A stretch of DNA of 64,000 nucleotides from Gammaproteobacteria bacterium (lineage in GTDB: Bacteria > Pseudomonadota > Gammaproteobacteria > Enterobacterales > Psychrobiaceae): NCBI GenBank assembly GCA_013214965.1, contig JABSRU010000009.1, positions 62,001 to 126,000 of the forward strand, read 5' to 3'. How positions within the stretch are numbered: the first letter of the stretch is position 1; the number at the start of each line of letters is the position of its first letter. A program made the position numbers and the translations under genes. Shown here one piece after another: positions 14,376 through 57,677 of the stretch. Under the pieces are notes generated by a model. It searched no databases, was not told the origin of the DNA, and was given only the letters and a program-made list of their open reading frames with translations.

Positions 14376-15028
14376 TATTTTTTCACCTTTAACTCAACCG
14401 AGTCATTAGATTTTTTAGCGACATAATCGATCACATAATCAATGCCATGCTTACGAATTAACGCATTAAATTCAGCATGTTTACTTGCCACCATACTAAC
14501 GCCTTCAGCTGACATATCGTAAGCCTTCCAGTTGCCACTTTTAGCACCTTTTCTTAATTTAAACGCAATCGAAATAGGTGGTCGGTTAGTATCAATAATT
14601 TTAACTTTAACGCTAACCGTCTTTTTGTTCGCGAACTTTTTCGTTTTACCATAGGTCACTTGCTGTTGATCGTACAAGGTAAACATATTGGCATAATTGA
14701 CAATAAGGTAATCGTAAAACACCGCGGTGAATTTAGTTTTTTGTGCTTTAGATAACTTGCGGTAATTTTTACCTAACACTTTAGCCAAGGCATATTTGGT
14801 ATTGATATAAGGCATCAACTCTTGTTCAACCACCACCTTAAGATGATTCAAATCCTTATCAATCAGCGCTCGATCGGTTTTAAAGCGCGCAAAGGTTTGT
14901 TCGGCCACATTGTGGATCAATTGATAAGGATCTTTCATGTCTAATGTTGGGGCTGTTTTCGCCACACTAACATTGGCAAAAAATACCACCATCAAACTCA
15001 TTATTGTTTTGCTAAACCATTTCATCAT
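14375..15028 (-). CDS. mlaC: Periplasmic phospholipid-binding protein MlaC
   Basis: 217 residues. A Sec signal peptide ends near SVAKTA (residue 25), then a Tol-Tol-Ttg2 (MlaC) domain with DYLIVNYANMFTLYDQQ. MlaC carries phospholipids between the outer-membrane MlaA-porin complex and the inner-membrane MlaFEDB complex. Between mlaD and mlaB, as in the standard operon. Confidence 0.94.
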   Translation of the reverse strand: MMKWFSKTIMSLMVVFFANVSVAKTAPTLDMKDPYQLIHNVAEQTFARFKTDRALIDKDLNHLKVVVEQELMPYINTKYALAKVLGKNYRKLSKAQKTKFTAVFYDYLIVNYANMFTLYDQQQVTYGKTKKFANKKTVSVKVKIIDTNRPPISIAFKLRKGAKSGNWKAYDMSAEGVSMVASKHAEFNALIRKHGIDYVIDYVAKKSNDSVELKVKK

Positions 15029-21684: not shown

Positions 21685-23160
21685 ATGAAAGCTTCTTTGC
21701 AGTTAAAACTTGGTCAATCTCTGACCATGACGCCTCAGCTTCAACAGGCGATTAGATTACTCCAACTATCGACTCTGGATTTACAATCAGAGATCCAAGA
21801 AGCGCTTGACGCCAATCCTTTACTCGAACTTTCAGAAACAATCGACAACGACATTTCTGCCAACGAAACACCGACTTCAAACGAACCTGTCGCCGAAACG
21901 CCTGAGCACGTAGAAGTGATAGATAGTTCTGCGATTGAAACCCATGAAGCCTTAGAAAAGCAAACCATTAATGATGAGTTACCCATTGATAGTACTTGGG
22001 ATGACTACACATCAGCCGCGCCGGCAGCTTCAAGCGGGCCGCTCAGCGAAGATTATACTTATCAGGGTGAAACCACCGAAAATTTACAAGATCACCTGAC
22101 TTGGCAAATGAACCTGACGCCATTCACAGATACCGACCGAGCCATTGCCGTGGCGATTATCGATGCTGTTGAAGAGTCTGGCTATTTAACCCAAACTCCT
22201 GAAGATATTTTAGAGGCAATGGCCGATCCAGAACTAGACCTTGACGAAGTGAAGGTGGTATTAAAACGGATTCAGCATTTTGACCCAGTAGGTGTTGCCG
22301 CGCAAAGTCCAGGAGAATGCCTAGCGATTCAACTGAGACATTTACCAAGCGATACGCCTTTACGTGATGAGGCAATCAACCTAGTGTCTAATTATATGGA
22401 ATTGTTAGCACTGCGTGATTACCGGACCTTAATTAGAAAAACCAAATTAAAAGAAGCGGCCTTGGCCGAAGCTATCGTACTGATCCAGACCTTAAATCCT
22501 CATCCAGGTAATACGGTCATTCGTGCTAAAGACGAATACGTTATTCCAGATGTCTCTGTTAAAAAAGTCAAAGGACGTTGGGTGGTCGAGCTAAATCCAG
22601 ATTCTTTGCCTAAAATAAGAGTTAACGAGCAATATGCGGCATTAAGTCGAACCAGTAAAAGCAGCAGCGATACTCAATTTATCCGGAGCCACCTGCAAGA
22701 AGCAAAGTGGTTTATCAAAAGCATCGATAGCCGCAACGAAACGCTACTCAAAGTGTCTAATTGTATTGTGATGCAGCAACGAGGATTCTTTGAGTATGGC
22801 GATGAAGCCATGAAGCCACTGGTATTAAATGATGTTGCTGAAGCTATTGAAATGCACGAATCAACAATTTCACGGGTGACTACTCAAAAATATATGCATA
22901 CCCCCCGTGGTATATTTGAATTGAAATACTTTTTTTCGAGCCATGTAAGTACTGAAAATGGTGGCGAATGCTCATCGACGGCTATTCGCGCTATCATTAA
23001 AAAGCTGATTGCGGCAGAAAATACCAAGAAGCCTTTAAGTGATAGTAAAATTGTCGATTTATTAGCGGAACAAGGAATTAAAGTAGCACGCAGAACGATT
23101 GCAAAGTATCGTGACGCATTATCAATTCCGCCTTCCAATCAAAGAAAGAGCTTAATATAA
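21685..23160 (+). CDS. rpoN: RNA polymerase sigma-54 factor RpoN
   Basis: 491 residues. Region I is Gln/Leu-rich ([20 protein letters not shown]), an acidic region II follows (about 50-115), then the core-binding domain and the C-terminal DNA-binding part with the RpoN box [10 protein letters not shown] near residue 470. It directs RNA polymerase to GG-N10-GC promoters and needs an AAA+ activator. One such promoter is visible in this window (28175-28192). Confidence 0.97.
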
Positions 23161-27302: not shown

Positions 27303-27845
27303 ATGAGCAAAAAATCAGTTAGTACCACCGAATTAGAACAAGATGACTGGGTCAGTAAAAGCGAGCGAAAACGCCAAGCTGAGGACATGCAAGTGATCGC
27401 TCGTTCATTAATGAAATTGTCTGATAATCAGCGTAAAAAGCTCCCAATGAGTGAACAGCTAAAAGATGCAATTGTATTAGCAATCAAAATAAAAAATACC
27501 AAAGAAGGCTTTCGTCGCCAAATGCAATTGGTGGCTAAAATTCTTCGTACCAATAATACCGAAGACATCAAAACAGCAATCCAAGAGTTTGACTTACGCC
27601 ACAAGCGCTCCGACGTCATAGCAATGAAACTAGAAGTGTTACGTGATGGTATGTTGAAAAAAGGCGATGAAGCGATTAATGCTTTTATTGAACAGCATCC
27701 AAGTGCCGACCGCCAACGACTGCGTCAACTGATTCGCCAAGCGAATAAAGAGATTAAAGCAGAAAAACCGCTAAAAACTTCGAAAGAGCTGTACCAATAC
27801 ATTAAAAGTATCAGCACTGCGAGTATTGCGGATAGTAATACTTAA
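27303..27845 (+). CDS. darP: Ribosome-associated protein DarP (YjgA, DUF615)
   Basis: 180 residues, highly charged and helical, with the family signatures DDWVSKSERKRQAEDMQVI and RQRLRQLIRQANKE. DarP assists late 50S assembly. It is divergent from pmbA, a widespread pairing. A 12-bp hairpin follows the stop. Confidence 0.94.
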   Translation: MSKKSVSTTELEQDDWVSKSERKRQAEDMQVIARSLMKLSDNQRKKLPMSEQLKDAIVLAIKIKNTKEGFRRQMQLVAKILRTNNTEDIKTAIQEFDLRHKRSDVIAMKLEVLRDGMLKKGDEAINAFIEQHPSADRQRLRQLIRQANKEIKAEKPLKTSKELYQYIKSISTASIADSNT

Positions 27846-27858
27846 GTATTTTCAGTTA

Positions 27859-27902
27859 ATTAACGTTACTATTTTTCAGTAACGTTAATGTCATGTTTTT
27901 TT
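27859..27902 (+). terminator. Hairpin terminator after darP
   Basis: ATTAACGTTACT (27859-27870) pairs perfectly over 12 bp with AGTAACGTTAAT (27878-27889). The T-run begins 5 nt after the stem, so efficiency is uncertain. Confidence 0.65.
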
Positions 27903-28069
27903 ACACCACAAACCACTTAAAATCATAATTTAGTCTTAGTTTAAAATATAAACCATTCCTTTTGCTAATAGTTCAGCTGCCCCCATCACCATACACCAAC
28001 TAACATTTTACCAATTAAACTATTGTTTTAAATATTAAATAAGACTTAATATCGATTAATTTAATTAGA

Positions 28070-28096
28070 TTAGAAGTGTCTAATTATTTTACACTT
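28070..28096. promoter_or_regulatory. Possible enhancer site for a sigma-54 activator
   Basis: Two overlapping inverted repeats: TTAGA-N4-TCTAA (28070-28083) and AAGTGT-N11-ACACTT (28074-28096). They lie about 105-130 nt upstream of the predicted sigma-54 start, the usual distance for a bound AAA+ activator. The identity of the activator is unknown. Confidence 0.35.
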
Positions 28097-28174
28097 ACAT
28101 ATAAGACTAAATAATCAAACACCCCAGCAAACACTAATACCAACGATTTGCATCAAGTTTTATTTTTTTTAAGC

Positions 28175-28192
28175 TTGGCACTATTCATGCTT
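28175..28192 (+). promoter_or_regulatory. Sigma-54 (-24/-12) promoter of the PEP-CTERM-like gene
   Basis: TTGGCACTATTCATGCTT: the -24 element TGGCAC and the -12 element ATGC have GG (28177-28178) and GC (28189-28190) exactly 10 nt apart. A T-rich tract precedes it, common at such promoters. Predicted start near 28201, 55 nt before the ATG. The only deviation of note is A for T at the start of the -12 TTGC. Confidence 0.72.
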
Positions 28193-28255
28193 AGTATCCT
28201 CCATCAACCATTAAGGAGTAGGTTGATAACACTATAAATAATAAGGGATTATATA

Positions 28256-28981
28256 ATGAACACCAAATTTTTACAGGGTATTGGATTGGGCTGTGGACTG
28301 CTATGTATGGTCGGTTCTACCAACGCGAATTTGTTATCTTCATCCTACGATGCTAATAATTTTTCCTATGGTAGTATGTTTGATATCACTGCTCAGGATA
28401 AAAATCTATTAATCACCGGTTTAGACTTAAACTTAGGCAATAATTCTCAGACGCGCACAGAAGAAATTTATACACGAGGCTCAGGTGCTGGGGATAAATT
28501 TTTCCAAATTCAAGTGTGGAAAAAAATGGGCACATGGGATATTCATGGCGACCATACAGCAGGCGATGACTCTACCAATGACGTTCGAAATATCAGTTAC
28601 AATGGTTGGAAACTAGTGGCTGAATCAGGTGTAACTTCTGCAGGTAGCAACAACTCAACCTTTTTTGATATCAATGATTTTACGGTAGCAAGTGGTGAAA
28701 CCAATGGTTTATGGGTAACAAGTACCGTTGGAACTCAACAAATTAATTATCTCGGGACTGACGAAGGTTTCAGTGTTGGTGATGTCTTTTCACAGGATGA
28801 ATTCTTAAGTGTTCATACGGGTGCTGGCTTGCACTACGCAACGAACACCTCTCTGTTTCAGGCAAGACGCTTCAGTGGTGGTATTCATTACCAAGTCATT
28901 ACTGAACCAAAAACTATCGCCACCTTAGCATTAGGACTGATGCTGATTAGTTTTCGAAGAAAAAGTTACAGTAATTTTTAA
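28256..28981 (+). CDS. Secreted protein with PEP-CTERM-like C-terminus
   Basis: 241 residues. Sec signal peptide (about 1-24, cleavage near TNA). The middle is a beta-rich, Asn/Ser/Gly-rich domain I cannot assign. The last 25 residues have the three-part PEP-CTERM form: TEPKT in place of the usual PEPST, a hydrophobic helix (IATLALGLMLISF) and a basic cluster RRK. Such tails are recognised by exosortase, which is not in this window. AAGGGA lies 7 nt before the ATG. Transcription appears to depend on sigma-54. It is a single-gene insertion between darP and tldD. Function unknown; an extracellular or biofilm-matrix role is only inference. Confidence 0.75.
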   Translation: MNTKFLQGIGLGCGLLCMVGSTNANLLSSSYDANNFSYGSMFDITAQDKNLLITGLDLNLGNNSQTRTEEIYTRGSGAGDKFFQIQVWKKMGTWDIHGDHTAGDDSTNDVRNISYNGWKLVAESGVTSAGSNNSTFFDINDFTVASGETNGLWVTSTVGTQQINYLGTDEGFSVGDVFSQDEFLSVHTGAGLHYATNTSLFQARRFSGGIHYQVITEPKTIATLALGLMLISFRRKSYSNF

Positions 28982-28994
28982 GGCTCAACCGGTA

Positions 28995-29050
28995 AATGTA
29001 GACAAAGTAAGCTTGAGTTACACCAAGCTTACTTTGTCTACATTGCTTTT
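28995..29050. terminator. Long perfect hairpin between the PEP-CTERM-like gene and tldD
   Basis: A perfect 21-bp stem (28995-29015 with 29024-29044) and an 8-nt loop, followed by GCTTTTTATT on the plus strand. It serves the converging PEP-CTERM-like and tldD transcripts. The stem is about twice the usual length. Confidence 0.85.
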
Positions 29051-30537
29051 TATTCAGTACCACCAACAGTGATTTGATCAATCTTTAAGGTTGGTTGTCC
29101 AACCCCAACTGGCACGCTTTGGCCATCTTTACCACAAACCCCTACTCCTGGGTCTAACTTCATGTCATTACCCAGCATCGAAATTTGTTGCATCGCTTCG
29201 ATACCATTACCAATTAACGTTGCGCCTTTAACCGCTTGGGTAATTTCACCATTTTTAATCAAGTAAGCTTCCGACGCCGAAAATACGAATTTACCCGAGG
29301 TGATATCAACTTGACCACCACCAAAGTTAGGGGCATATAAGCCATCTTCAATGCTGGCAATAATATCTTTTGGATCTGACTCACCACCCAACATAAAAGT
29401 ATTAGTCATCCGTGGAATAGGTAATGAGGCATAAGACTCACGGCGACCATTACCCGTACTAACAGTATCCATTAAACGGGCATTATGCTTATCAAACATA
29501 TAGCCTTTTAAAATACCATCTTCAATTAAGACGTTACGCTGGGCAGTAACCCCTTCATCATCAATGTTAAGTGAACCACGACAACCACTCAACGTACCAT
29601 CATCAACAATAGTACAAAGCGGTGACGTCACTAACTCGCCAATTTTGCCACTAAACACCGAGGAACCTTTACGGTTAAAGTCCCCTTCTAGCCCATGACC
29701 AACCGCTTCATGCAATAGTACTCCAGGCCAACCAGGTCCTAAAACAACAGGCATTGAGCCCGCAGGTGCATCAATCGCTGTCAAATTAACTAGCGCTTGG
29801 CGCACCGCCTCTTCGGCATAGGTTTCGAGGCGTACTTTACCGTCGACAACCTCCAAGAAAAAGTCATAACCCGTTCTAGCTCCACCGCCAGCACTGCCAC
29901 GCTCTCGCTTACCATTGTCATCGACAATCACACTACAATTTAAGCGCACTAACGGTCGAATATCAGCGGCCAGAGTGCCATCGGTCGCGGCAATCAAAAT
30001 TTCTTCATAAACACCCGACAAGCTAGCAACCACTTGAGTCACTCGTTTGTCCTGTGCCCGAGCATGTTGATCCAGACGACGCAGTAAATCTAGTTTTTCT
30101 ACTTCACCCATTAATGCCAGAGGATCAAGCTCTTGATAAACGCTAACTCCAGCATTCTTATGCCAGGCTTTTACTTGACCGCTACAACCCGCAGTCGCAA
30201 TACCTCGAGCCGAAGTAACACTTAAATCAATCGAGCGATTATTAATTTCGTCAGCATAGGCAAAGCCCGTTTTATCATCGACAATGGCACGAACCCCAAC
30301 GCCACGTTCAATATTAAAACTACCATCCTTAATAATGCCATCTTCCAGCATCCAAGACTCATGACGGGATGATTGGAAATACAAATCACCAAAATCAATT
30401 TTGTGTTGATACAGATTGTTTAAATGTTGTTGTAACTGATCAACTGTTAGGCCAGAAGGGCCTAACAGTGATTCGCTGACCTGATCAAAAGTCTGTTGAA
30501 ATGATTTTGGACTGATTTTCATAGCATTCATTGGCAT
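29050..30537 (-). CDS. tldD: Metalloprotease TldD
   Basis: 495 residues (E. coli 481). The metal-binding motif HEAVGH is at about 275-280 ([13 protein letters not shown]), with the later GSRRE-like and metal-ligand Cys region near VGVCGKDG. It forms the TldD/TldE peptidase with PmbA. The ATG at 30537 has GAG 6 nt upstream. Last gene of the mreBCD-maf-rng-yhdP-nit-tldD run, 7 nt after the amidase gene. Confidence 0.95.
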
Positions 30538-53422: not shown

Positions 53423-55087
53423 TTAGTGCTCTTCATCCGGATACCAAGTCTCAATCAGATCTTTTGAACGTTGCAGCTCATTTTCCCAAGTACCTTGTTC
53501 CACTACAATCGGACGGATTAATATAATCAACTCGGTCTTTTGAATCGTTTCTTTACGGTTAGTAAATAACTGGCCTAACAGCGGAATGTCGCCTAGCAAC
53601 GGGACTTTCGATTCGTCATCACTGGTGCGTGAGCTCATTAAGCCCCCTAACACCACAACATCACCACTGGCGGCACGGATAATGGTATCGGTTTCTCGAA
53701 TCGAACTATTCGCCAACGGCAACACATAGGTGCCACTTTGTAATTCAATAATTTTCTGTTGTTCTTTAACATTAATCACCGACGGGTGAACATGAAGTAA
53801 TACCTGGCCATTTTCATCAATTTGCGGCGTAACATCCAATGCGATACCAGAGAAAAATGGCGTTAATTCAACAGTGGGATTACTAACCACATTATCACCG
53901 ACCGAACTCGATGTCGAAGAGATACCCGTCACAAAATATTCATCGGTTCCGACTTTAATCACCGCTTTTTGGTTATTTAATGCCGTGATACGAGGACTTG
54001 ATAACACGTTAACATCGCCTTGGGTTTTAAGCAGATTGACCACGCCAGCAAAATTCATATTTGAAAAGGTTAACGACGCCACCCCACCTAAGGTCGAGCT
54101 AATAACATCGGACACGCGACCTTTCGAGGTCGCATAATTGAGCGTCGTAATATTATTATTGCCCGTGGTAGCCAATATTTTGCTCCACTCGATACCTTGC
54201 TGGTAACCATCACTAAGCGTTACCTCAATAATCCGAGCCTCTAAAATAACCTGACGCTGAATATTCTGTTCCGACTGCTTTAAATATTTCCTTACGGTAT
54301 TAATTTCACTAGGGAAACCACGTACTGTCACAATCCCAGCTTGCGGACTAATTGACACATAGCGACCCTCACCAGTAATCAATTGACTTAAGGTTTGCTC
54401 TAACTCTTGCCAAAAATCCGTTTCGGTTCGTGACTCAATAAAAGTCCCATTCGTGCCAACAGCACTACTAGCACTTGAACCACTATTGTTATTGCCATTA
54501 CCGGAACTGTTATCGTTATTTGAGTTATTACCACCCGTACTATTCGAAGTAATACCGCCAGAAGTAATGCTGGTTTTTGACACTCCATTACGCTTGACTA
54601 ACAGGTAGTTAAAATTAAAGCTTTCGGTAGTAATAGCCGCAGGTAACACTTGAAGAATACGACCTTGTTTTTTAATTTGGTAACCATACAAATCACCGAC
54701 CGCATCAATCACCTCAGTCATGGTCACTTGCTTTAACTGTAATGAAACATGACCGGACAAGTCAGGATGAAATGCCACACTATAGGGCGTTTTATCAACT
54801 AAATTCGCAAAAAATTGCTGAATGCTGACATCGTTTGCCGCGATATCAAACCGCTTTTGGTTATACTTTGGCTTTGGGATCGACCGATTAATAGTTGATG
54901 GCATTAATGCTTGGGTAATAGCCGTGGGTACTTTAAATGCACTATCAGCCTGCGCTGATTTTTTGGCTGGCATATCTAACGATTGCTGAATCGTTGCCCT
55001 TTCCTGTTGCACAGGTGTCATCTGGCAACTTGCTAGCAGACCCATAGAGATTAATAAAAATGTTTTTCTATACCTGATTGTTGACAT
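53423..55087 (-). CDS. mshL: MSHA outer-membrane secretin MshL
   Basis: 554 residues. Lipoprotein signal with lipobox LLASC (Cys near 21), a STN/N0-type domain (about 80-145), an Asn/Ser/Gly-rich linker (about 180-210), an N1-type domain (about 240-280) and the C-terminal secretin beta domain ending VVVLGGLMSSR ... VPLLGDIPLLGQLF. It is the outer-membrane channel of the pilus. Confidence 0.95.
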   Translation of the reverse strand: MSTIRYRKTFLLISMGLLASCQMTPVQQERATIQQSLDMPAKKSAQADSAFKVPTAITQALMPSTINRSIPKPKYNQKRFDIAANDVSIQQFFANLVDKTPYSVAFHPDLSGHVSLQLKQVTMTEVIDAVGDLYGYQIKKQGRILQVLPAAITTESFNFNYLLVKRNGVSKTSITSGGITSNSTGGNNSNNDNSSGNGNNNSGSSASSAVGTNGTFIESRTETDFWQELEQTLSQLITGEGRYVSISPQAGIVTVRGFPSEINTVRKYLKQSEQNIQRQVILEARIIEVTLSDGYQQGIEWSKILATTGNNNITTLNYATSKGRVSDVISSTLGGVASLTFSNMNFAGVVNLLKTQGDVNVLSSPRITALNNQKAVIKVGTDEYFVTGISSTSSSVGDNVVSNPTVELTPFFSGIALDVTPQIDENGQVLLHVHPSVINVKEQQKIIELQSGTYVLPLANSSIRETDTIIRAASGDVVVLGGLMSSRTSDDESKVPLLGDIPLLGQLFTNRKETIQKTELIILIRPIVVEQGTWENELQRSKDLIETWYPDEEH

Positions 55088-55096
55088 GTTAGCCCT

Positions 55097-55426
55097 TTAC
55101 TTTGAAATTCTTACTACTGAACGCCCAAACAAATATAATGTTATGCCAGAACTTAGCACTACCTTATCCGACATGATTTTCTTAATCCGATCTTGAGCAA
55201 TCATTTGCCCCTCGCGATAACTCATTTGATTAATAATTGCTATTTTATGTTTACCGTCCAACTTAATCGCATTTAAATTTAATTGTTCACTAACAAGCAC
55301 TTGCTCTGTTGTTGATGATTTATGAGCAATCGCAAGACTAGGTTTAGTTGGATCCTGTCGCTCAGCCGCATTAAGTAACAAAGAGTTACAGCAAACTAGT
55401 AATAATAATACTTTAACGAACCACAC
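55097..55426 (-). CDS. mshK: MSHA biogenesis protein MshK
   Basis: 109 residues from a GTG with AAGGA 8 nt upstream. Signal peptide (about 1-20), then RQDPTKPS and a short PilP/GspC-like domain (AIINQMSYREGQMI). A likely periplasmic link between inner-membrane complex and secretin. It overlaps mshJ by 14 nt and lies 9 nt before mshL. Confidence 0.85.
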   Translation of the reverse strand: MWFVKVLLLLVCCNSLLLNAAERQDPTKPSLAIAHKSSTTEQVLVSEQLNLNAIKLDGKHKIAIINQMSYREGQMIAQDRIKKIMSDKVVLSSGITLYLFGRSVVRISK

Positions 55427-56084
55427 TAATAAATTCCTTATCCGTACTTAAGGTATAAACCTCAAGACTTACCGTCGCTAACGGATGCTCAGTCACTGAA
55501 TAATGAACGCTTTGCCACAATATTTTGTCGCTAGCTTGTTCAATTTGTTCTAAAAATTCTAAAATAGAAAAATAACGGCCTTCAACTTCTATCGCTAAGC
55601 CATGCTGATATAAAGCACGTTGCACCGCGGTTGTGTCATCTTGTTCTTGTGCATCACTCTCTAACGATATCGGCTGTACCGGCAAAGACTTAAATGATAT
55701 TAATTTTAATTCGTTATTTTCGTTCAATAAAGTTTGCAATAATTGTGCCATTTCAGATTTTGACACCATCGCCAATGACCGCGCTTTTAGTTGCTTAATC
55801 AGTGTTTGGTTTTTCTGATTAAACGCTGCTATTTCACGCTTAATCGAACCGTTAATTTCTTGATTCAGTTGCTCTTCGAGTGCTAATACCTGCTCATCGG
55901 TTTGCTTAATTTGATCCTTTTTAAACTCGCTCGAAGTCACAGCAGCTTGCCAACGATCATATTGAGGTTCAACCAACACAGTAAAACCAACAAACAACAC
56001 GAGTACTAACCCTGAGATTAAAATGAGTCCTTTTTCGCGATTCGACAGCGCTTGATGCTTTTTCGTTAATTCTTGCCAAGTCAT
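55413..56084 (-). CDS. mshJ: MSHA biogenesis protein MshJ (PilO-like)
   Basis: 223 residues: cytoplasmic start SNREKGLILISG, a membrane helix (about 20-38), a coiled coil (about 50-100) and a ferredoxin-like periplasmic domain. Corresponds to PilO/GspM in the alignment complex. ATG overlaps the upstream PilN-like gene by 4 nt. Confidence 0.88.
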   Translation of the reverse strand: MTWQELTKKHQALSNREKGLILISGLVLVLFVGFTVLVEPQYDRWQAAVTSSEFKKDQIKQTDEQVLALEEQLNQEINGSIKREIAAFNQKNQTLIKQLKARSLAMVSKSEMAQLLQTLLNENNELKLISFKSLPVQPISLESDAQEQDDTTAVQRALYQHGLAIEVEGRYFSILEFLEQIEQASDKILWQSVHYSVTEHPLATVSLEVYTLSTDKEFISVVR

Positions 56085-56680
56085 TGTGCGCTCTCTAAAT
56101 CTGTCACTTGCTCATTTAAAGTAAAGGTCAAATAATCCTCATAGCGCGTAATTTCTAGCGCCGAAAAGTCTTTGCCAACTAGGACCGAAGCATCCTTCAA
56201 CCCACCGATCCACTGCGGGATATCCTGAGACCGAATAGCGCCACCATCAATTGTGATCGAGTCATGATCAACATTAACACCGGTCAGCCACACATCCTGC
56301 GACTTTAACGAGGACAGCGCCGAGAATATTGGGGAGAAGCCTTGTTTATGTTGCTGATATAATTTATTAATTTGAGTAAATATCGCCTTATTCTGCGATA
56401 TTTCCTTAAGTAATTTACTTTTTTCAAGTAACAATTGGTCAATATTATTGAGCTGGGCATACTCTTTTATATTACTGTCAAGCTGCGCCATTGATCGCTG
56501 AAGTTGTGCATCAAATTGAGTTTGTTGTTCAGCTTGCAAATGATTTAAGCCATAAAAAGTCCCTGTTAATCCAAGCACCACTAAACAGGCCATCGCAATC
56601 ATAGCCACCGACATCGACAAGGGTAAAACTTCTTTTACCGGTTTTAATTGCTCTAAATATAAATTAATCCGATTCTTCAT
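56081..56680 (-). CDS. mshI2: PilN-like MSHA biogenesis protein (MshI2)
   Basis: 199 residues: cytoplasmic start RINLYLEQLKPVKE, the PilN-type peptide that binds PilM, one membrane helix (about 22-42), a coiled coil (45-105) and a small periplasmic domain. Usually annotated MshI2 or PilN-domain protein. Overlaps both neighbours by 4 nt. Confidence 0.85.
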   Translation of the reverse strand: MKNRINLYLEQLKPVKEVLPLSMSVAMIAMACLVVLGLTGTFYGLNHLQAEQQTQFDAQLQRSMAQLDSNIKEYAQLNNIDQLLLEKSKLLKEISQNKAIFTQINKLYQQHKQGFSPIFSALSSLKSQDVWLTGVNVDHDSITIDGGAIRSQDIPQWIGGLKDASVLVGKDFSALEITRYEDYLTFTLNEQVTDLESAQ

Positions 56681-57570
56681 GATTGATTCTCCGTCATTGC
56701 TAGCTCAGCAACTGCCGCAACGTTTATGGGGAAACGAATAAAATCGTCATCACCTTCAATCTTCAAACTTTTAACCGGCAAATCAAAATACTCTTGCATC
56801 CCGGTTAACAAATGTTCCAAATCAAAGTTTTGAATCAGGACATAAATACTCTCGATGCTATCAATTCTTAATTGTCCGAGGGCATAATCGATCGAACGCT
56901 GCACTTCCAAACCTAAATTGGTCAACATGCCCAGGCCAAAATCAGCTTCACTCATTTGATGCAAATTGTCGTAACCATGAATATGACGACTAAAGCAAAG
57001 CTTGCCATCTTCAACCACTGCAATTAACACCTGCGAACCTGGTAAATGAAAAATAAGTACATTGGCAGATGTTGGTTTTAATAACTGCGTAATCACCACA
57101 TCTTCAATAGAGATACCTGAAATGTTTACTTTCTGTTGATGTAAAAACTCAACAATCGGCCCAATAACAGCACGATTAGCGGCCACGACATTAAGTTTAT
57201 TAAGGCTTGGGTTATTACTATGGTTTTGGTAATAATCGAGTATTTGATCTTCTGGTTTAATCGTAAAAAGGTCTTTGGCGCTCCAGGCTAATGCTTGAGC
57301 GACTTCCGATGTTGGGACATTAGGTTGTTCCACTTGAACCACTTGATAATTGCCATGGGTTAATACAATTTGGCAATGACTATTATTGATTGCAATTTCT
57401 TGAGTTAATGATGTAATTGCTCCTAAGAAATCGCCTTGCTGCACAGGAAGTTGTTTAATAAAGCTCTGATCACCATCAATCAACCCAACCGTGACACTAT
57501 TCGATTGGATCACAATACTCAGTTGGCGATTAGACAGTGCTTTATTTTTCTTTAACAAATTTTTTAGCAC
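56677..57570 (-). CDS. mshI: PilM-like MSHA biogenesis protein MshI
   Basis: 297 residues from the GTG at 57570 (GGAAG about 9 nt upstream); the open frame extends 28 codons further with an unlikely hydrophobic, AT-rich start. An actin-like PilM-type fold is suggested by SIVIQSNSVTVGLIDGD and by VLIFHLPGSQVLIAVVEDGK. First gene of the msh cluster; the customary mshH upstream is absent. Confidence 0.85.
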   Translation of the reverse strand: MLKNLLKKNKALSNRQLSIVIQSNSVTVGLIDGDQSFIKQLPVQQGDFLGAITSLTQEIAINNSHCQIVLTHGNYQVVQVEQPNVPTSEVAQALAWSAKDLFTIKPEDQILDYYQNHSNNPSLNKLNVVAANRAVIGPIVEFLHQQKVNISGISIEDVVITQLLKPTSANVLIFHLPGSQVLIAVVEDGKLCFSRHIHGYDNLHQMSEADFGLGMLTNLGLEVQRSIDYALGQLRIDSIESIYVLIQNFDLEHLLTGMQEYFDLPVKSLKIEGDDDFIRFPINVAAVAELAMTENQS

Positions 57571-57677
57571 GATACAAGGCTTCCAAATAATAAACAGTAA
57601 ACAATATATATTCTCATTATCCCAAAAAATATACGGTTGCAATATAAAAATCATTAATCACTAAGGCGTTAGTTAAC

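Follow-up and report, generated by a model that had tools for sequence, protein, structure and literature searches.

The 64,000-nt stretch of DNA analysed here, referred to as the window, contains on its plus strand at 28256..28981 an open reading frame for an exported, PEP-CTERM-like protein of 241 aa, and the locus raises the question whether this gene belongs to a sigma-54-controlled set of exosortase substrates or encodes an ordinary secreted protein. An earlier interpretation made without database searches (the sequence-only reading) had placed the gene at the margin of such a regulon. According to the present analysis, the gene very likely belongs, as a single-gene unit, to the PrsK/PrsR-sigma-54 regulon, and its product would be an exported, exosortase-A-processed protein of the extracellular matrix.

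The gene is located between a yjgA-like gene ending at 27845 and a convergent tldD-like gene on the minus strand (29050-30537). It is followed at 28995..29044 on the plus strand by a predicted terminator composed of a 21-bp perfect hairpin with an 8-nt loop and then GCTTTTTATT (folding energy -33.3 kcal/mol, z -8.5). This hairpin is repeated nowhere else in the window and, since it closes the gene, points to a single-gene unit. Within 27840-29060 no Rfam match was found. The protein is homologous over all three of its parts to two PEP-CTERM proteins. Its signal peptide MNTKFLQGIGLGCGLLCMVGSTNA (residues 1-24, 28256..28327, plus strand) was assigned from hydropathy and sequence, aligns to the signal peptides of relatives, is devoid of a lipobox and is probably cut after TNA. 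The central domain (residues 25-215, 28328..28900, plus strand), a predicted beta-sandwich of about 190 residues, is Cys-free and consists to 29% of Ser, Thr and Asn. The C-terminal tail (28901..28978, plus strand) comprises a TEP box, a hydrophobic helix and an RRK cluster. Elsewhere in the window, MSHA pilus biogenesis genes (mshL, mshK, mshJ and mshI-like, named from sequence only) are located on the minus strand at 53423-57654.

The sigma-54 promoter that had been proposed upstream of the open reading frame was confirmed at 28176..28191 on the plus strand. The -24/-12 element TGGCACTATTCATGCT consists of GG at 28177-28178, ten intervening nucleotides and GC at 28189-28190, and its end is separated from the ATG at 28256 by 64 nt. 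Placed from the -12 GC, transcription is expected to start near 28201, about 55 nt before the ATG, which would result in a 5' leader at 28201..28255 (plus strand) with an AAGG ribosome-binding site. Taken alone, this site is weak evidence. When the intergenic region was shuffled 5000 times, 47 of the shuffles reached its score, and the site ranks third among the plus-strand sigma-54 sites of the window. Lone GG-N10-GC sites are common, and the two plus-strand sites with higher scores could be cited in favour of the view that both the promoter-like sequence and the C-terminal hydrophobic segment of an otherwise ordinary secreted protein arose by chance.

This view is opposed by two upstream elements that the sequence-only reading had missed. 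The main PrsR-type enhancer motif, TGTCTAATTATTTTACA, is located at 28077..28093 on the plus strand with a spacer of 82 bp to the promoter, and a second copy, TGTCATGTTTTTTTACA, is present at 27889..27905 on the same strand, about 270-287 bp upstream of the promoter; the latter lies just past the yjgA-like gene. With a position weight matrix (PWM) derived from eight sibling genes, the motif at 28077 was the best match on both strands of the window. The combined enhancer-plus-promoter score was 30.3, followed by 19.9 for the next pair in the 128 kb of both strands, in which the pair is thus unique, and both scores together were reached in none of 5000 shuffles. It is the pairing with the enhancer and not the promoter by itself that settles that the pattern exceeds chance. 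The strongest minus-strand sigma-54-like site (55750) was discarded as a candidate, as it is located inside the mshJ-like coding frame and outside the best enhancer-promoter pairs.

The enhancer sites used for the PWM were first chosen by eye. Because the shared element had been spotted in this way, the motif was searched again de novo by expectation maximization (EM) in the upstream regions of 13 readable sibling PEP-CTERM genes, with the target gene excluded. The best motif recovered was TGTCaGTTTTTTTTAC, and the sigma-54 motif TTGGCATA..TTGC was obtained as a further optimum. For the 16-bp motif, the two top plus-strand matches in the window were the sites at 27889 and 28077, both before the target gene; a poly-T site on the minus strand (6811) outscored both and was not among the best enhancer-promoter pairs of the window. 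With wider motifs of 20 and 24 bp, the site at 14587 competes with 27889 and 28077. Several of the offsets between enhancer and promoter fall into clusters at 79-80, 90 and 99-101 bp, approximately one helical turn apart, with those of two siblings (50 and 129) falling outside these clusters. This clustering fits an activator working from one face of the DNA.

The same arrangement recurs in the genome. A search with the PEP-CTERM model revealed 13 proteins above the cut-off and two below, and the target was the weakest of these matches. A TGTC-N6-TTTTACA element followed by a -24/-12 site precedes eight of the twelve genes above the cut-off for which the upstream region could be read (L008, for which this region ends at the contig end, was left out), so that the promoter anticipated before other PEP-CTERM genes is indeed carried by them. 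The pattern TGTC-N6-TTWTAC-N60-90-TGG-N9-TGC was matched eight times in the genome and never in the reversed control. Seven of these matches, the target among them, precede PEP-CTERM-type genes, which further argues against chance; the eighth is located inside a moeB-like coding frame. When 59 genomes including the own one were searched, the enhancer-spacer-promoter pattern was found in 22, with about 55 matches compared to 6 in the control, and among the non-coding sites read in relatives, the majority precede proteins with PEP-CTERM tails. In one relative (G018, L065) the pattern is located about 134 nt before a long open reading frame that is not obviously a PEP-CTERM protein. Judged from these sequence patterns, the assignment of the gene as a canonical PrsK/PrsR regulon target is supported. 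The description as a distant target does not hold, since both motifs are present at the spacing given by Haft et al. (PMC1569441).

The genes expected for such a regulon were searched in the genome, and the exosortase and the prsK/prsR pair, for which the sequence-only reading had suggested to look, are both encoded. Exosortase A (XrtA) scored 316.9 bits (cut-off 208), PrsR, which carries the GAFTGA loop, 688 bits (cut-off 502.6) and PrsK 575.8 (cut-off 300). The XrtA gene is part of an exopolysaccharide cluster, and prsK and prsR are located on the same contig at the edge of this cluster. PrsT is encoded elsewhere in the genome (478.6, cut-off 312.2), and a gene named from its sequence as RpoN is present within the window (21685-23160). 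As judged by these model matches, the exosortase A system of the genome is complete.

The C-terminus had been described as TEP, hydrophobic helix and RRK, and this segment, VITEPKTIATLALGLMLISFRRKSYSNF, is present in the tail ITEPKTIATLALGLMLISFRRKSYSNF. Against a profile built from 28 sibling tails, with the target excluded, the tail scored 21.5 bits (E 1.3e-5), while the best of 2000 shuffled tails reached 8.2 and the next open reading frame of the window 4.6. This score, together with the canonical PEP-CTERM tails (VPEP) of relatives, is difficult to reconcile with a fortuitous hydrophobic segment, and the chance reading as a whole is considered highly improbable. The curated models responded less clearly. 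The whole protein scored 10.5 with TIGR02595 (cut-off 16) and 12.7 with PF07589 (cut-off 20.7), and the isolated tail reached 15.7 (cut-off 16) with TEP and 21.7 when PEP was substituted; one residue accounts for the shortfall. The near-invariant first P is replaced by T, and the box is not a literal Pro-Glu-Pro, while the tripartite layout of box, hydrophobic helix and basic cluster as well as the N-terminal signal peptide are all present. Because the tail is just under the curated cut-offs yet clear in the sibling-tail profile, it is termed PEP-CTERM-like here, and agreement with the curated definition is not claimed. The box is therefore non-standard as had been noted, but it is not exotic: the VTEP tails of two relatives (L045 and L064) with the same promoter pass the PEP-CTERM model with 22.8 and 21.6, and thus T at the first box position is tolerated in accepted PEP-CTERM tails.

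The sub-threshold scores and the replacement of the first P by T could also mean that the gene is a PrsR/sigma-54 target with a tail that has drifted, in which case the product would not be cut by exosortase A and would stay in the periplasm anchored to the inner membrane. The VTEP relatives behind the same promoter speak against this possibility, as do the SEP and PVP boxes found in sibling proteins of the same genome and the retention of the entire tripartite layout, and a drifted tail is regarded as rather improbable. Processing of the product by exosortase A is the preferred reading. Against the proposed role of the gene as a whole stands that a search of nine further genomes from the genus revealed no orthologue, and hence no direct sign that the gene is conserved.

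No covering model for the central domain was found in Pfam or NCBIfam, and matches to SAPIS-gp6, FxDxF, CofB repeat, strictosidine synthase and choice-of-anchor R were all far under the cut-off. A scan of genome contigs with the single protein revealed no relative, and searches of the genus (nine other genomes), of the order (395 genomes) and of viral contigs, plasmids and phages were likewise negative. When 398 genomes of the phylum were searched with a profile, the target gene alone was returned, which indicates that the domain is rare there. A gammaproteobacterial MAG encodes two related PEP-CTERM proteins in tandem (E 8.9e-12 and 1.1e-9). Further relatives are a secreted, unanchored protein without the tail (L073; weak at E 0.003, yet alignable across the domain) and one module of a surface protein from Bacteroidetes (27% identity; E 3e-14 by BLASTP in a single comparison). 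The latter protein has more than 1500 residues and is open at both ends of its stretch (module at L079:203-679); the surroundings of the module are repeat-rich and adhesin-like. Matches in G010, G408 and G608 were rejected as relatives on inspection, as they reflected repeats or low similarity.

The structure of the central domain was predicted with AlphaFold2 from four sequences as a beta-sandwich of moderate confidence (mean pLDDT 62, pTM 0.62), compared to a pLDDT of 36 without alignment. The closest folds to the pLDDT 62 model were PHR domains (Z 9.4, rmsd 3.3, 124 aligned; Z 9.2), followed by CBM6 (Z 7.2, 102 aligned) and other jelly rolls (Z 6-7), and the model suggests a binding module. 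Within the preferred reading of the gene, the domain may be a carbohydrate- or ligand-binding beta-sandwich of PHR or CBM6 type that directly binds exopolysaccharide. With PHR and CBM6 as the top structural matches and one relative forming part of a large surface protein of Bacteroidetes as a module, this is a tentative but serious candidate, rated somewhat below an even chance, as the model built from four sequences is of moderate confidence only, jelly-roll matches at such Z values may reflect a common arrangement, and no PHR or CBM model was listed among the sequence matches. The further-reaching view that the domain founds an undescribed family of PHR-like extracellular beta-sandwiches which bind matrix polysaccharide and occur both in matrix proteins sorted by exosortase and in large surface proteins of Bacteroidetes is possible but more doubtful.

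In the proposed mechanism, phosphorylated PrsR would bind motif 1 at 28077 and probably also the copy at 27889, and the bound activator would contact the sigma-54 polymerase at 28176-28191 by looping, driving transcription from about 28201. The signal peptide would export the product, and its C-terminal helix would retain it in the inner membrane, where exosortase A would process it at the TEP box. The beta-sandwich domain would then reach the cell surface or the exopolysaccharide matrix, where, by analogy, it probably binds or cross-links polymer. The mechanism as such is already known, and it is the gene that is newly added to the regulon. The expectation of undescribed biology is borne out only for the central domain with its few relatives, while the regulatory switch has been known since 2006. 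By this addition, a well-defined regulon gains a protein whose tail falls just below the annotation cut-offs; in the PEP-CTERM models it remained sub-threshold, and only the sibling-trained profile recognised it clearly. Hence, the enhancer-promoter pair can reveal exosortase substrates that are missed by tail models. Moreover, the central domain, which occurs in Gammaproteobacteria and Bacteroidetes and is covered by neither Pfam nor NCBIfam, is a candidate matrix-binding module.

The PrsK/PrsR/sigma-54 PEP-CTERM regulon was described by Haft et al. in 2006 (PMC1569441). Its motif of 17 nt ends with TTTACA, is sometimes repeated and is followed after a spacer of 32-92 nt by the sigma-54 motif, which is on average 71 nt from the start codon; it was carried by 99 of 167 proteobacterial PEP-CTERM genes and matched PrsR, PrsK and PrsT in phylogenetic profile (PMC1569441). 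The locus studied here resembles this regulon in its 17-nt motif ending with TTTACA, the repeated copy and the -24/-12 site (spacer 82, start distance 64), in the lone gene preceded by a large intergenic region, in the exported Ser/Thr/Asn-rich protein with a box-helix-basic tail and in a genome that encodes XrtA, PrsK, PrsR and PrsT. It differs from the PEP-CTERM proteins of Haft et al. in the TEP in place of PEP, with a tail just under the curated models, and in a central domain without a model. For pepA of Aquincola tertiaricarbonis, RpoN-dependence and the transcription start have been demonstrated, and PepA shifts exopolysaccharide out of the soluble and into the bound fraction (PMC9850573). 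The target, as a predicted sigma-54-dependent gene, resembles pepA, which likewise has a TGGCAC -24 element and a predicted upstream enhancer (PMC9850573), whereas the target protein, scanned in full length against NCBIfam, did not match floc_PepA. Further close counterparts are the tandem proteins of the Gammaproteobacteria SZUA-467 MAG (L078 4001-4705 and 4803-5462), which share the signal peptide, the same domain (29-32% identity) and a PEP-CTERM tail with the target, but have a canonical VPEP box and are without three insertions (about 6-17 residues) that the target protein has.
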